Assembly (NCBI RefSeq): GCF_000970305.1
Contig: NZ_CP009517.1
Coordinates: 1,364,001-1,428,000, forward strand
Source of the DNA: Methanosarcina barkeri 3
GTDB lineage: Archaea > Halobacteriota > Methanosarcinia > Methanosarcinales > Methanosarcinaceae
Reading direction: 5' to 3'
Length of the DNA stretch: 64,000 bases
The position numbers and the translations under genes were made by a program. This document shows positions 18,089 to 37,938 of this stretch, piece after piece; position 1 is the stretch's first letter; each line of letters opens with the position of its first letter. The notes below the pieces were generated by a model, which worked only from the letters and a program-made list of their open reading frames with translations, ran no database searches and had not been told where the DNA came from.

Positions 18089-18420
18089 ATATACCTACTT
18101 AATAGAATAATTAACTCCTTACCTGGTGAATTTGTTCGTTATATCTTTTTAAATATCCTTTAACTTTTAACAAATATCTTTCTGACTCTTATAAAACGAA
18201 AAGACTTTAAATAATACTCTCAAAGGAATGATAGGGTGAAGCCAGAGATAAATGAACAAGTATAAACAGCTTGATGATTATATCCCTGCTTAGAAATCAC
18301 TATATTTAGTCTGAGTTAACAATTAATCTGAATCAACGATTAATCTGAATCAACAATTAATCTAAACTAATAAATGATTTAAAACACTTAAGTTTAAATT
18401 AATGTTCAGGGGGAATCCTC

Positions 18421-19209
18421 ATAAAAATAGCAATTACCGGAAAAGGCGGCGTTGGAAAAACAACTCTCTCAGGTACTCTGGCCAGACTGTTTGCAAGAGA
18501 CGGGTACGAGGTACTGGCAATAGATGCAGACCCGGATATGAACCTGGCATCTTCGCTTGGGGTCGAAAATCCCCCTAAGCCCCTGACAGATTTCAAAGAC
18601 CTGATTCAGGAAAGAGCGGGTGCAGAAGGCGGAGCTTTCATCTACAACCCTAAAGTCGATGACATTGCAAGTAAATACGGAGTTATAGGGCCCGATGAAG
18701 TAAGAATGCTCGTTATGGGCACTGTAGACCGCGGTGGAAGTGGATGCATGTGTCCGGCCTCGGCTTTCCTGAGGGCTCTTCTCAGGCACCTTATGCTCAA
18801 GGAAAAGAGTGCAGTGATCCTTGATATGGAAGCAGGGATCGAACATCTCGGAAGGGGCACTACAAGAGGAATGGACCTCATGATCGTGGTAGTTGAGCCA
18901 GGGGCAAGATCGCTTGAAACGGCTGAGAGAATAAAAAAGCTGTCTTCCGAAATAGGAATAAAACACCTTGCTGCTGTAATTAATAAAGGAGGCGCGGGGA
19001 AAGTTAACGACAAACTTGAGGAGATGGGCATCCAGGTACTTGGAGAAATTCCCTTTGACCCCAAATTAATGCAGGCTGACCTGGAGAAACGGGCTCCTAT
19101 TGAGGTAGGCGGCGAAGCTGTTGATGCTATAGTAAAAATTAAGGAAAAACTGATGGAAGTCGTTGAAGAGATCAGGATAGAAGAGGAAGCTAGCAAGAGC
19201 AAAAAGTAA
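18421..19209 (+). CDS. cooC: CO dehydrogenase nickel-insertion ATPase CooC
   Basis: 262 residues if translation starts at ATA 18421. The reading KIAITGKGGVGKTTL immediately follows this codon, and the deviant Walker A motif (residues 7-16) is essential, yet no ATG, GTG or TTG occurs in frame between the upstream TAA (18400) and it. The first in-frame ATG (18538) would remove the ATP-binding site. AGGGGG (18408-18413) sits at good spacing before ATA. Other motifs are AIDADPDMN and C109-x-C111 (GCMCPAS), the metal-binding CxC of CooC dimers. CooC uses ATP to help insert nickel into the CODH C-cluster. No CODH gene is in the window. Confidence 0.88.
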   Translation: MKIAITGKGGVGKTTLSGTLARLFARDGYEVLAIDADPDMNLASSLGVENPPKPLTDFKDLIQERAGAEGGAFIYNPKVDDIASKYGVIGPDEVRMLVMGTVDRGGSGCMCPASAFLRALLRHLMLKEKSAVILDMEAGIEHLGRGTTRGMDLMIVVVEPGARSLETAERIKKLSSEIGIKHLAAVINKGGAGKVNDKLEEMGIQVLGEIPFDPKLMQADLEKRAPIEVGGEAVDAIVKIKEKLMEVVEEIRIEEEASKSKK

Positions 19210-34735: not shown

Positions 34736-34807
34736 ATCTTGCTTGACTAACTTAAAATTTGGATTTACATAGAAATTTTCCGTAAATGGGAAATAGGGGG
34801 GTTGATT

Positions 34808-35497
34808 ATGGAAATAAATAAGGTCAGAATTCAGGACATTCCTAAAGAGGAACGTCCAAGAGAGAGGCTTATCCGAAACGGGCCGGAATCACTTTCAAAC
34901 GCGGAACTGCTTGGAATTATCCTCAGGACGGGATCAAGGGAAGAAAATGTTGTAAATCTGTGCAGCCGGATATTAACAGAATACAGTATCAAGCAACTCA
35001 GTCTTGCAAATGTTTCAAGGCTTATGCAGGTTCATGGGGTAGGAAAAGCAAAAGCTGCCCAGATAGCTGCGGTTTTCGAGCTTGCCCGCCGGCTCGAGAC
35101 TTTTGTGGAAGAGCCTAAAAGAAAAGTTTGCTCGCCAAAGGATGTGTACATACTCATGTATCCTAAGATGCGCGAACAGAAAAAAGAAAAATTTATAACA
35201 CTTTGCCTTGATACAAAAAATCAAATCCTCAAAGAAGAAGTCATATCCATCGGTAGCTTAAATGCGAGCATTGTTCATCCGCGTGAGGTCTTCAAGTCCG
35301 CACTTATGGAATCATCAGCGTCAGTAATTATGGTCCATAATCATCCTTCAGGGGATCCAAGCCCGAGTCGAGAAGACATAATGGTCACTGAGAAAATGGT
35401 AGAAGGAGGAAAACTCCTTGGAATTGACGTGCTTGATCATATCATTATCGGAGAAGGCAGATATGTGAGCCTTAAAGACGAGGGCTTTGTAAGATGA
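34808..35497 (+). CDS. radC: RadC-family JAB-domain protein
   Basis: 229 residues from ATG 34808, chosen because the ATAGGGGGG Shine-Dalgarno fits it; a TTG at 34802 is also in frame. A helix-hairpin-helix (VHGVGKAKAAQIAAV) precedes the JAMM-type motif HNHPSGDPSPSREDI near residue 177. The family name comes from a disproven repair role; the actual activity is unresolved. In bacteria it is often in mobile regions, but no mobile element is seen here. Confidence 0.88.
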   Translation: MEINKVRIQDIPKEERPRERLIRNGPESLSNAELLGIILRTGSREENVVNLCSRILTEYSIKQLSLANVSRLMQVHGVGKAKAAQIAAVFELARRLETFVEEPKRKVCSPKDVYILMYPKMREQKKEKFITLCLDTKNQILKEEVISIGSLNASIVHPREVFKSALMESSASVIMVHNHPSGDPSPSREDIMVTEKMVEGGKLLGIDVLDHIIIGEGRYVSLKDEGFVR

Positions 35498-35579
35498 AAT
35501 GACTTAAAGACCTGAAATCTGAATGTAGAGACCCTCTACTTATAGAAGAGTTTAGTGTAGAGAATTAAATGAAGAACCC

Positions 35580-35882
35580 TCAGTGTAGAAACTCAAAATG
35601 TAAAAACTCTCAGTGTAGAAACTTCAAATGTAAAAACTTTCAATACAAAAACTCTGAATATTAAGCGTTCAATATAAAAAGTCTCAATATAATCACTTTC
35701 TGGTTACTTTCCCTAATTGAAACAAGAATAAAATAATATATTAAAAATATGAAAGGGTTAACTGGAAAAATATTTAAAAAATAGTGGAAAATAGTGGAAA
35801 ATAAAGTAGTTGAAAAATAGTGGAAAATAGTGGAAAATAAAGTAGTTGAAAAATAGTGAAAGATAGTGAAAAAAGTAGTTGA
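35580..35882 (+). repeat. Two tandem arrays between radC and flavoprotein
   Basis: A 30-bp unit (CAGTGTAGAAACTCAAAATG...) recurs at 35580-35660. A 36-bp unit (AAAAATAGTGGAAAATAGTG...GTAGTTG) recurs three times at 35777-35882, ending just before the flavoprotein start. Together they occupy most of the 390-bp gap. Confidence 0.85.
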
Positions 35883-35887
35883 AGATT

Positions 35888-36466
35888 ATGAAAGTTATAG
35901 GTATTAACGGAAGCCCACGAAAAGAAGGCAATACTGCAATCCTGATTCAAACCGTATTTGAGGAATTGACAAAAGAGGGCATCGAAACCGAACTTATTCA
36001 ACTATCTGGAAAAAACATAGAAGGATGCAAAGCTTGTTGGGCTTGCCATAAAAACAAAAATAAGCAATGTGTCATCACGGATGATTTTTTTAACGAATGT
36101 TTTGCAAAAATGCTTGCTTCAGACGGAATTATTCTAGGGTCACCGGTATATTCAGCGGGTGTGACCTCGCAAATAAAGGCCTTAATTGACAGGGCAAGCA
36201 TGGTACTTGCAGGAAATAAAGGGGTTTTCAAGCACAAAGTAGGAGCCTCAGTTGTAGCTGCTCGCAGAGGCGGTGCTATAAGTGCTTTTGATACCCTGAA
36301 CAATTTTCTATATAGCAAAGAAATGTTTTTGGTAGGATCGAGTTACTGGAATATGGCTTACGGGAATGCTATCGGAGAAGTAGAACAGGACCAGGAAGGC
36401 ATTAACAACATGAAAAACCTTGGTCAAAATATGGCATGGATACTGAAAAAAATTCATAATAGTTGA
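35888..36466 (+). CDS. Iron-sulfur flavoprotein (Isf-like, flavodoxin fold)
   Basis: 192 residues from ATG 35888 (TTG 35879 is also in frame). The FMN phosphate loop GINGSPRKEGNT is at about 4-15. The compact cluster motif C-x2-C-x2-C-x7-C (GCKACWACHKNKNKQC) is at about 44-59, characteristic of the methanogen Isf family, which moves electrons between ferredoxin and acceptors such as O2 or H2O2. LGSPVYSAGVTSQIKALIDR is the second FMN-contact region. No operon partner is apparent. Confidence 0.85.
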   Translation: MKVIGINGSPRKEGNTAILIQTVFEELTKEGIETELIQLSGKNIEGCKACWACHKNKNKQCVITDDFFNECFAKMLASDGIILGSPVYSAGVTSQIKALIDRASMVLAGNKGVFKHKVGASVVAARRGGAISAFDTLNNFLYSKEMFLVGSSYWNMAYGNAIGEVEQDQEGINNMKNLGQNMAWILKKIHNS

Positions 36467-36791
36467 ATGTAATTTGGCGTCTCCAGTGAATTAAAATAAG
36501 GTTTAAGGGTTTCCTTTAAATCTTCTGGAAAAGCAGCCAGCAAACCTACCGATAGAAAGATAAATAGTTGTTTTATAACGGTTAGCTCATAGGCGGACTT
36601 GAAGAACTCATGCAAGTCCGTACTATCGAGTTTCACTTGTCTAATTTCACTTGTCTAATTTCACTTTATCGAGTTTCACCTCATCGAATTTACTAAAATT
36701 ACGATACCTATATATATCTATAAGAGATGGGCATTTCGATAAAACAAATTTCCCTCCCAGTTTCGTATTCCTTAAAAAGGAGGTTTTCTGA
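36467..36791. other. Gap with short repeats
   Basis: 325 bp. Contains repeated TTTCACTTGTCTAA-type sequence (36628-36690). GGAGG at 36779-36783 is the ribosome binding site of the next gene. No other feature seen. Confidence 0.5.
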
Positions 36792-37778
36792 ATTACAAAA
36801 CATATAAACGCCTGTGCACTGGACAGCAGGGATATTGAGGAAGTAATCCTGGATGATCCTTATACTGTGCCCTATAGGGGCATTTATGCTATCTGTGACG
36901 CGGCAAATGAGTATGCAGAGATAATTGAGCACTCTAATTGTTATAGTGGGGCCTGCTGGTCCCTCTACCACTATGCAAAAGCGCCACTTGTCCTGAAAGC
37001 CCGTTCGACCGGAAATATGATCCGTTATTTCATGAAAACCGGAACTTCAAACCTGGAACTCAAACCTTCGGTCGCGGCCGCAGGTATCGAATCAGTGATC
37101 GTGAATGGGGATGAGGTAGAGATCACCTATGCCGGGTTAGGAGGCGGAGGTGTTGGCGCAACCCGTTGCAGAGCATTTGCAGACGGAATTCTTCGTTATA
37201 AGATATCAGAATCAGGAGGCGAGAAATGCGCAAGGGGGACAATTGCAGTTCCGCGCAGGGAACGCGTCCTCATAGGTATAGATGACACTGACTCAAAAGA
37301 CGTAGGAGCCACCTGGACTCTGACCCATAACATTGCAAAAAAACTGGACTGCAATGAAGCTGTTTATCTTTCACATTCTCTTGTCCAGCTTTTCCCTGTC
37401 CCGGAAAAGACCCAAAACTGCATGTCTACTGTGCTTGAATTCGGCTGTGTAAACGATAAAGCGAAATCAAGGCTGGTAGATACTTTCAAAAAAGCAATAA
37501 AAAAATATACCGCTTCAACGCAAACCGGATTGGTTGTCCTCTCGGATTTCTATGCAAAAGGACTATATCAATACAGCAACCGCTGTCGGACTGAAAGGAT
37601 CTCGAAAGAGGAAGCTATGCAGTGCGCCAGGAAAAACGGTGTAGAAGTCCTGCTTGACGGCAACGGAGTAATAGGTGCACTTGCCTCTCTTCCCTGGTTC
37701 GGAAGACCTGATGAGTCCATAATTCCCGGTACTGAGATCGAGCCTCTTACTATTGAGAAACTTAAAAATAGTGTTTAA
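36792..37778 (+). CDS. Methanogenesis marker protein 11, probable ATT start
   Basis: 328 residues if translation starts at ATT 36792. GGAGG (36779-36783) lies 8 nt before it, and ITKHINACALDSRDIEEVILDDPYTVPYRG reads as genuine protein leading into the conserved region. The only canonical alternative is GTG 36867, which has no ribosome binding site. The family (TiaS/DUF1743-related) shows IGIDDTDSKDVGATWTLTHN and a final NGVIGALASLPWFG segment. The gene occurs in essentially all methanogens; its function is not known to me. It precedes the IorA-like gene by about 200 bp. Confidence 0.85.
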   Translation: MTKHINACALDSRDIEEVILDDPYTVPYRGIYAICDAANEYAEIIEHSNCYSGACWSLYHYAKAPLVLKARSTGNMIRYFMKTGTSNLELKPSVAAAGIESVIVNGDEVEITYAGLGGGGVGATRCRAFADGILRYKISESGGEKCARGTIAVPRRERVLIGIDDTDSKDVGATWTLTHNIAKKLDCNEAVYLSHSLVQLFPVPEKTQNCMSTVLEFGCVNDKAKSRLVDTFKKAIKKYTASTQTGLVVLSDFYAKGLYQYSNRCRTERISKEEAMQCARKNGVEVLLDGNGVIGALASLPWFGRPDESIIPGTEIEPLTIEKLKNSV

Positions 37779-37888
37779 GAAATTAAGAAAATAGGATAAA
37801 AAAGTAAGGACTCCGAAATAGAAAACTCAATTCGGGTTTAAATTACTTGAACACTGAGTTAGATGGAACTCAAGTCCAAACGGATTTT

Positions 37889-37938
37889 ACAAAACTTTGT
37901 TACAAAACTTTGTTGCAAAACTTTGTTACAAAACTTTG
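37889..37938 (+). repeat. 13-bp tandem repeat
   Basis: ACAAAACTTTGTT repeats nearly four times just upstream of the IorA-like gene. Confidence 0.8.

Follow-up and report, generated by a model that had tools for sequence, protein, structure and literature searches.

Comparative sequence analysis predicts a conserved AUU start codon for methanogenesis marker 11 in Methanosarcina and a small recurrent class of AUU/AUA starts

The analyzed window is a 64,000-nucleotide stretch of the Methanosarcina barkeri 3 genome (NZ_CP009517.1, positions 1,364,001 to 1,428,000). The gene for methanogenesis marker protein 11 (mmp11), which carries a TiaS-like TCKD/FLD region, occupies positions 36792-37778 of its forward strand according to TIGR03280, Pfam, and fold searches. 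The frame is open for 328 codons and begins with the predicted start codon AUU (36792-36794), directly preceded by an in-frame TGA (36789-36791) and, 8 nt upstream, by the GGAGG of the Shine-Dalgarno sequence AAAAAGGAGG (36774-36783), all on the forward strand. A sequence-only reading of this DNA had described this arrangement, had proposed that translation starts at the AUU, and had named GTG 36867 as the only canonical option. The positions in the window agree with that description, and the GTG at codon 26 (36867-36869, forward strand) is the single ATG, GTG, or TTG within the first 26 codons. If the AUU is read as methionine, the predicted N-terminus is M-TKHINACALDSRD. The bare GGAGG-N8-ATT pattern is not above chance level, with three occurrences in the window vs a shuffle mean of 2.54; the significance of the mmp11 AUU start lies in its conservation in 34 of 34 distinct sequences. 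Upstream of mmp11, putative RadC-like and flavodoxin-like genes (34802-36466) were named by eye. In several sister genera, the DNA just before mmp11 resembles, by eye, the terminal part of radC, which suggests the entry of a gene between the two.

Mmp11 scored 396.2 bits against TIGR03280 (methanogenesis marker 11; cut-off, 255.8 bits), matching positions 1-290 of the 292 in the profile. Its Pfam matches were to TCKD/FLD, and a fold search returned TiaS, the tRNA(Ile2) agmatidine synthetase, over about 150 positions. Mmp11 has the TCKD and FLD regions and the fold in common with TiaS, but only these 150 or so positions align and the score is far below the TiaS equivalog cut-off (35.8 vs 600 bits). 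By the curated cut-off, Mmp11 is not a TiaS. In the structure model (pLDDT 86, 38 sequences), residues 1-9 are disordered and the first strand spans residues 30-35; the N-terminal extension of 14 codons (ITKHINACALDSRD; 36792-36833, forward strand), which is of low confidence in the model, is thus probably not part of the fold.

Marker 11 protein matches were found in 105 of the 111 genomes of the family and, at E <= 0.001, in 28 of the 30 genomes of the genus (G015 by a weak TiaS-like match only). Three of the 30, namely, G015 with this weak match, G018, and G026, gave no mmp11 locus; they are 60-81% complete. The ATT-carrying loci, 55 in two overlapping genome collections, correspond to 34 distinct sequences, 28 from the genus Methanosarcina and six from two neighbouring lineages. 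These sequences form one group (34/34; support, 0.951) with a summed tree length of 2.9 substitutions per site, and the switch to ATT therefore most simply happened once, with ATT kept since. Both ATT and GGAGG were invariant and the spacing was exactly 8 nt in all 34. On the tree, positions -15 to -9 and all three positions of the ATT were unchanged, whereas the eight bases between GGAGG and ATT differ among copies, many of which lack a stop there. The spacing lies within the range of 6-10 nt seen before ATG in a genome sample of M. barkeri 3. In the same sample, GGAGG occurred within 20 nt before the ATG of only 14 of 227 long ORFs; since a strong Shine-Dalgarno sequence is rare in this position, the invariant GGAGG at mmp11 looks like compensation. 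Near the start of the 98 distinct loci outside the ATT clade, no GGAGG-N8-ATT was found.

Five of the 34 sequences (L008, L014, L018, L027, and L163) have no usable ATG, GTG, or TTG start. A TGA adjoins the ATT in each of them and the first canonical codon is codon 76, deep within the conserved part of the marker 11 protein, which makes a canonical start impossible in these loci; the copy in the window itself retains the GTG at codon 26. Elsewhere in the clade, a TTG lies close upstream of the ATT in L025 and L068, upstream ATG or GTG/TTG codons are found at a greater distance in L011 and L069, and five of the 34 sequences contain an in-frame ATG inside the extension, at codon 10 or 13. Taken together, the comparison makes it very likely that mmp11 in Methanosarcina and the two adjoining lineages is translated from an AUU located 8 nt after a near-perfect Shine-Dalgarno sequence, as the sequence-only reading had proposed.

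A gene finder limited to ATG, GTG, and TTG would choose GTG 36867, which is the first canonical codon after the ATT in 21 of the 34 sequences; on this reading, the upstream GGAGG and ATT would be accidental. Codon 26 is, however, GTG in 25 sequences, GTA in eight, and GTC in one, so that the supposed start is replaced in 9 of 34. Sister genera start 11 codons further upstream; initiation at the GTG would therefore delete L20, P23, and Y24, which are conserved across genera, in line with the earlier statement that this start would cut the N-terminus. Comparison of N-termini gave no homolog starting at the equivalent of the GTG (+75), and 97 of the 98 loci outside the ATT clade have an ATG, GTG, or TTG upstream of it. 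A start at the GTG would also leave the invariant GGAGG-N8-ATT unexplained and is already contradicted in the five genomes with codon 76 as the first canonical codon. Translation from this codon is considered extremely unlikely.

Outside the ATT clade, an in-frame ATG was present at +27 to +60 in 87 of the 98 distinct loci and only GTG/TTG, at +27 to +63, in 10; one locus (L078) is unclear. In Methanolobus, Methanococcoides, Methanohalophilus, and others, the ATG stands at the equivalent of codon 15 and is typically followed by KEIEL-x-DPY or a similar sequence, and in-frame stops are often present between this ATG and the sequence corresponding to codons 1-8. Codons 15-25 (IEEVILDDPYT) are accordingly old protein sequence, and of the 25 codons previously described as an extension, only codons 1-14 retain that status, with the remainder being the older N-terminus that is ATG-initiated in sister genera. 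Codon 15 in the window (36834-36836, forward strand), the place of the ancestral ATG, is itself ATT.

The DNA of codons 2-6, ACAAAACATATAAA (36795-36808, forward strand), matches a BRE/TATA-like block, ACAAAACATTTAAA, that is conserved in sister genera 26-41 nt before the ATG (-41 to -26). The information content of this block reached 1.86 bits per position in an alignment of 53 distinct regions, which were picked for an ATG at +33, +39, or +42 and a few of which lack the block. The composition of such a block and its distance from the ATG fit the archaeal BRE/TATA element of a leaderless gene. A putative new TATA-like promoter element, CTATATATATC (36708-36718, forward strand), about 80 nt upstream, is shared by the genus and L031-L034 when the upstream regions are aligned, and was not seen there in L068/L069. 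Judging from the spacing, a transcript from CTATATATATC would start at approximately 36735-36745 and include the Shine-Dalgarno sequence.

The comparison with sister genera thus supports well an origin of the extension and its AUU from the promoter of an ancestral ATG-started gene. The ancestral mmp11 would have had its ATG, at what is now codon 15, about 26 nt after the TATA-like box, probably on a leaderless mRNA. The old promoter would then have become coding sequence and the old ATG would have decayed; a new upstream promoter would supply a leader carrying the strong Shine-Dalgarno sequence, and AUU would have taken over as the start. On this reconstruction, mmp11 documents a gene whose promoter became part of its own coding sequence.

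It could be argued that the old promoter within codons 2-6 is still in use and produces a leaderless mRNA starting at codon 15, which would be AUU in the window. The match of ACAAAACATATAAA to the TATA-like element of sister genera, the unusual conservation of its third positions, and the ATT found at codon 15 in 19 of the 34 sequences are compatible with this idea. In the other 15, however, codon 15 is ACT (nine), ACA (two), ATC (two), AAT (one), or ACC (one). In 7 of 34 sequences, a CAT-to-CAC change disrupts the TATA-like core and yet preserves the reading frame, and a leaderless start at codon 15 accounts neither for the GGAGG nor for the coding pattern seen in codons 9-14. Such a transcript as the source of the protein is very improbable.

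The substitution pattern likewise favors translation from the AUU. Among 57 inferred changes in codons 2-14, 35 fell at third positions (p = 1.3e-5 against 1/3), and the same held for 25 of 45 changes in codons 9-14 (p = 0.0018); the tree behind these counts was built from codons 16 onward of the same gene. By this comparison, the 14-codon extension evolves as coding sequence. Codons 1-8 (36792-36815) are, in addition, conserved beyond what the protein would need: they showed 10 third-position changes, while 277 other 8-codon windows averaged 41.9 and never fell below 22. Residual promoter activity may account for part of this extra conservation, as may the demands of initiation. The third base of the ATT changed 0 times, compared with two to eight times in each of six other codons that always encode isoleucine. 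ATG is one substitution away from ATT and was adopted in none of the 34 sequences; this points to selection acting on a weak start.

Initiation at another near-cognate codon of the extension was also considered. ATA is present at codon 5 in 33 of the 34 sequences and CTG at codon 10 in 25, but each of the two is lost in part of the clade, and their distances from the GGAGG, 20 and 35 nt, exceed normal spacing. AUU is the only near-cognate codon kept in every sequence, always 8 nt after the invariant GGAGG, and there is very little chance that one of the other two serves as the start.

An upstream ATG, contained in the hexamer ATGGGC 63-88 nt before the ATT, might in principle reach mmp11 in frame, by frameshifting, or by stop readthrough. 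ATGGGC occurs in 28 of the 34 leaders (36727-36732 in the window) and opens a frame with mmp11 in six; in L013, L015, L016, L017, L022, and L024, the protein could instead be extended from an ATG in frame at -63 or -66. Its frame relative to mmp11 is nevertheless mixed (0 in 14, 1 in seven, and 2 in seven, with the hexamer absent in six), the encoded peptide is not conserved, and in many copies the frame terminates upstream of the ATT or shortly past it. The copy in the window is out of frame and followed by the TGA before the ATT. Use of this ATG as the mmp11 start is hardly to be expected. A role of ATGGGC as a leader peptide was rejected as its frames are not conserved. Regarding RNA structure, no Rfam match was found in 36300-37900, and the fold stability of the leader was ordinary (z = 0.47), with no unusually stable structure. 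A CCUCC/GGAGG complementarity that caught the eye in many Methanosarcina leaders does not extend to other lineages and was dropped.

Escherichia coli infC and pcnB initiate at AUU. As in mmp11, the AUU of these genes follows a Shine-Dalgarno sequence; with AUG only a single substitution distant, it is maintained by selection, as seems to hold for mmp11. The product of infC is the factor that discriminates against AUU and thereby regulates itself, whereas Mmp11 is no known initiation factor. At mmp11, the AUU is presumably read by initiator Met-tRNA, so that the protein would still begin with methionine, and the strong Shine-Dalgarno sequence may compensate for the weak start codon. The mmp11 case differs further in being archaeal: in archaea, according to PMC6237735, aIF1 discriminates start codons and destabilizes initiation complexes on non-AUG codons. 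AUU may have been kept because low or regulated initiation is useful, for example, through start-codon discrimination by aIF1.

In Methanosarcina mazei, of the same genus, Ribo-seq of unannotated small ORFs showed that non-ATG starts are translated, with TTG and GTG at about 20% each and CTG at 5% (PMC11456600, main text). The starts given there are ATG, TTG, GTG, and CTG, and the term 'AUU' is absent from that main text. In a survey of start-codon switches, 1 of 61,358 ancestral AUG starts had changed to AUU, and AUU starts were treated as few (PMC5622118); by our reading, the count rests on annotated starts and would miss genes such as mmp11. Searches of the open-licence literature in PubMed Central turned up neither an AUU or AUA start in mmp11 nor an archaeal class of such starts.

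A second gene of this kind was identified in the window. A mechanical scan returned an ORF (18403-19209) with a Pfam match to CbiA, which we interpret as a CooC-like P-loop ATPase (18421-19209, forward strand) with a predicted AUA start at 18421 behind the Shine-Dalgarno-like GGGGGA (18409-18414). The N-terminus from the AUA would be M-KIAITGK, and the P-loop precedes the first canonical codon, an ATG at codon 40 counted from 18421. At the expected start, all 28 readable loci of the genus carry ATA, a count that omits L233 and L234, frameshifted fragments of one genome. In neighbouring lineages (n = 6), the codon is ATA in five and ATC in one. More distant loci (n = 17) carry ATG at this codon or the one before it in 15 cases and GTG in L256. 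In L249 (G106), an ATA was observed at the preceding codon, behind GGGGTGAG, where sister genera have ATG, possibly an independent AUA start.

The genome sample, in which the window was combined with 40 stretches of 20 kb each to give 864 kb (approximately 19% of the genome), added three AUU/AUA genes. The first encodes a GH15-like protein (L267:14535-16577, forward strand), with a conserved ATT after GGGGG/GGAGG and the first canonical codon at position 103 from the ATT. ATT was found in 23 of 27 readable rows, two of which represent the same place; the others have ATA, GTT, a start shifted by a codon, or belong to a distant paralog. An in-frame GTG at -9, inside the Shine-Dalgarno sequence, is present in eight rows. 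The second, a universal stress protein (Usp; L271:18933-19517, forward strand), carries an ATA whose place is taken in close relatives by ATG, after a similar Shine-Dalgarno sequence: among 30 rows, ATA occurs in eight (six distinct) and ATG at the same position in seven, with the rest being paralogs or misaligned. The third, a P-type ATPase (L342:11637-14486, reverse strand), was compared in nine copies, one of them broken, and has ATT in this genome at the position of ATG (three), GTG (three), or ATA (one) in relatives. Such exchange of ATG/GTG and ATA/ATT at one position, behind one Shine-Dalgarno sequence, provides direct comparative evidence for an equivalent role of these codons.

As far as sequence comparison goes, AUU/AUA starts thus appear as a small recurrent class in this genome and not a one-off; five genes in 864 kb would correspond, very roughly, to 25 per genome. 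Overall, it seems likely that Methanosarcina truly initiates a recurrent minority of its genes at AUU or AUA, for the most part after a strong Shine-Dalgarno sequence, that the mmp11 promoter turned into coding sequence, and that its AUU has been kept by selection since the lineage split, perhaps as an expression limiter sensed by aIF1. The retention of the same AUU start across the genus and its nearest relatives suggests that annotation misses a start-codon class in these archaea, as would any start prediction limited to ATG, GTG, and TTG. If this is true, AUU and AUA join the start codons of a model archaeal genus, and these genes could serve as clean natural reporters for the control of archaeal start-codon fidelity by aIF1 and Shine-Dalgarno strength. 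Where a canonical start is assumed, the N-termini of several conserved proteins in the genus would be wrong, and constructs for Mmp11 or the CooC-like ATPase that begin at the first canonical codon would yield a truncated protein, in the latter case without its P-loop.

Several further candidates were set aside. Most of the 15 from the first scan of the sample lack a Pfam match and look like chance frames, and in L268 (DUF3267), the domain lies well after the first canonical start. A codon-score scan returned seven ORFs; mmp11, the CooC-like gene, Usp, and the P-type ATPase were among them, but the GH15-like gene was not, and the ORFs L263 and L273 had no AUU, AUA, AUC, or CUG candidate behind a Shine-Dalgarno sequence. 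The L345 aminotransferase was not counted as an ATT start, as the next codon is CTG or TTG in nearly every aligned copy, which makes CUG/UUG an equally likely start. In this class-III aminotransferase gene (L345:9836-11257, reverse strand), ATT/GTT followed by CTG/TTG stands behind GGGGAGGAA, and the start is ambiguous, perhaps CUG.
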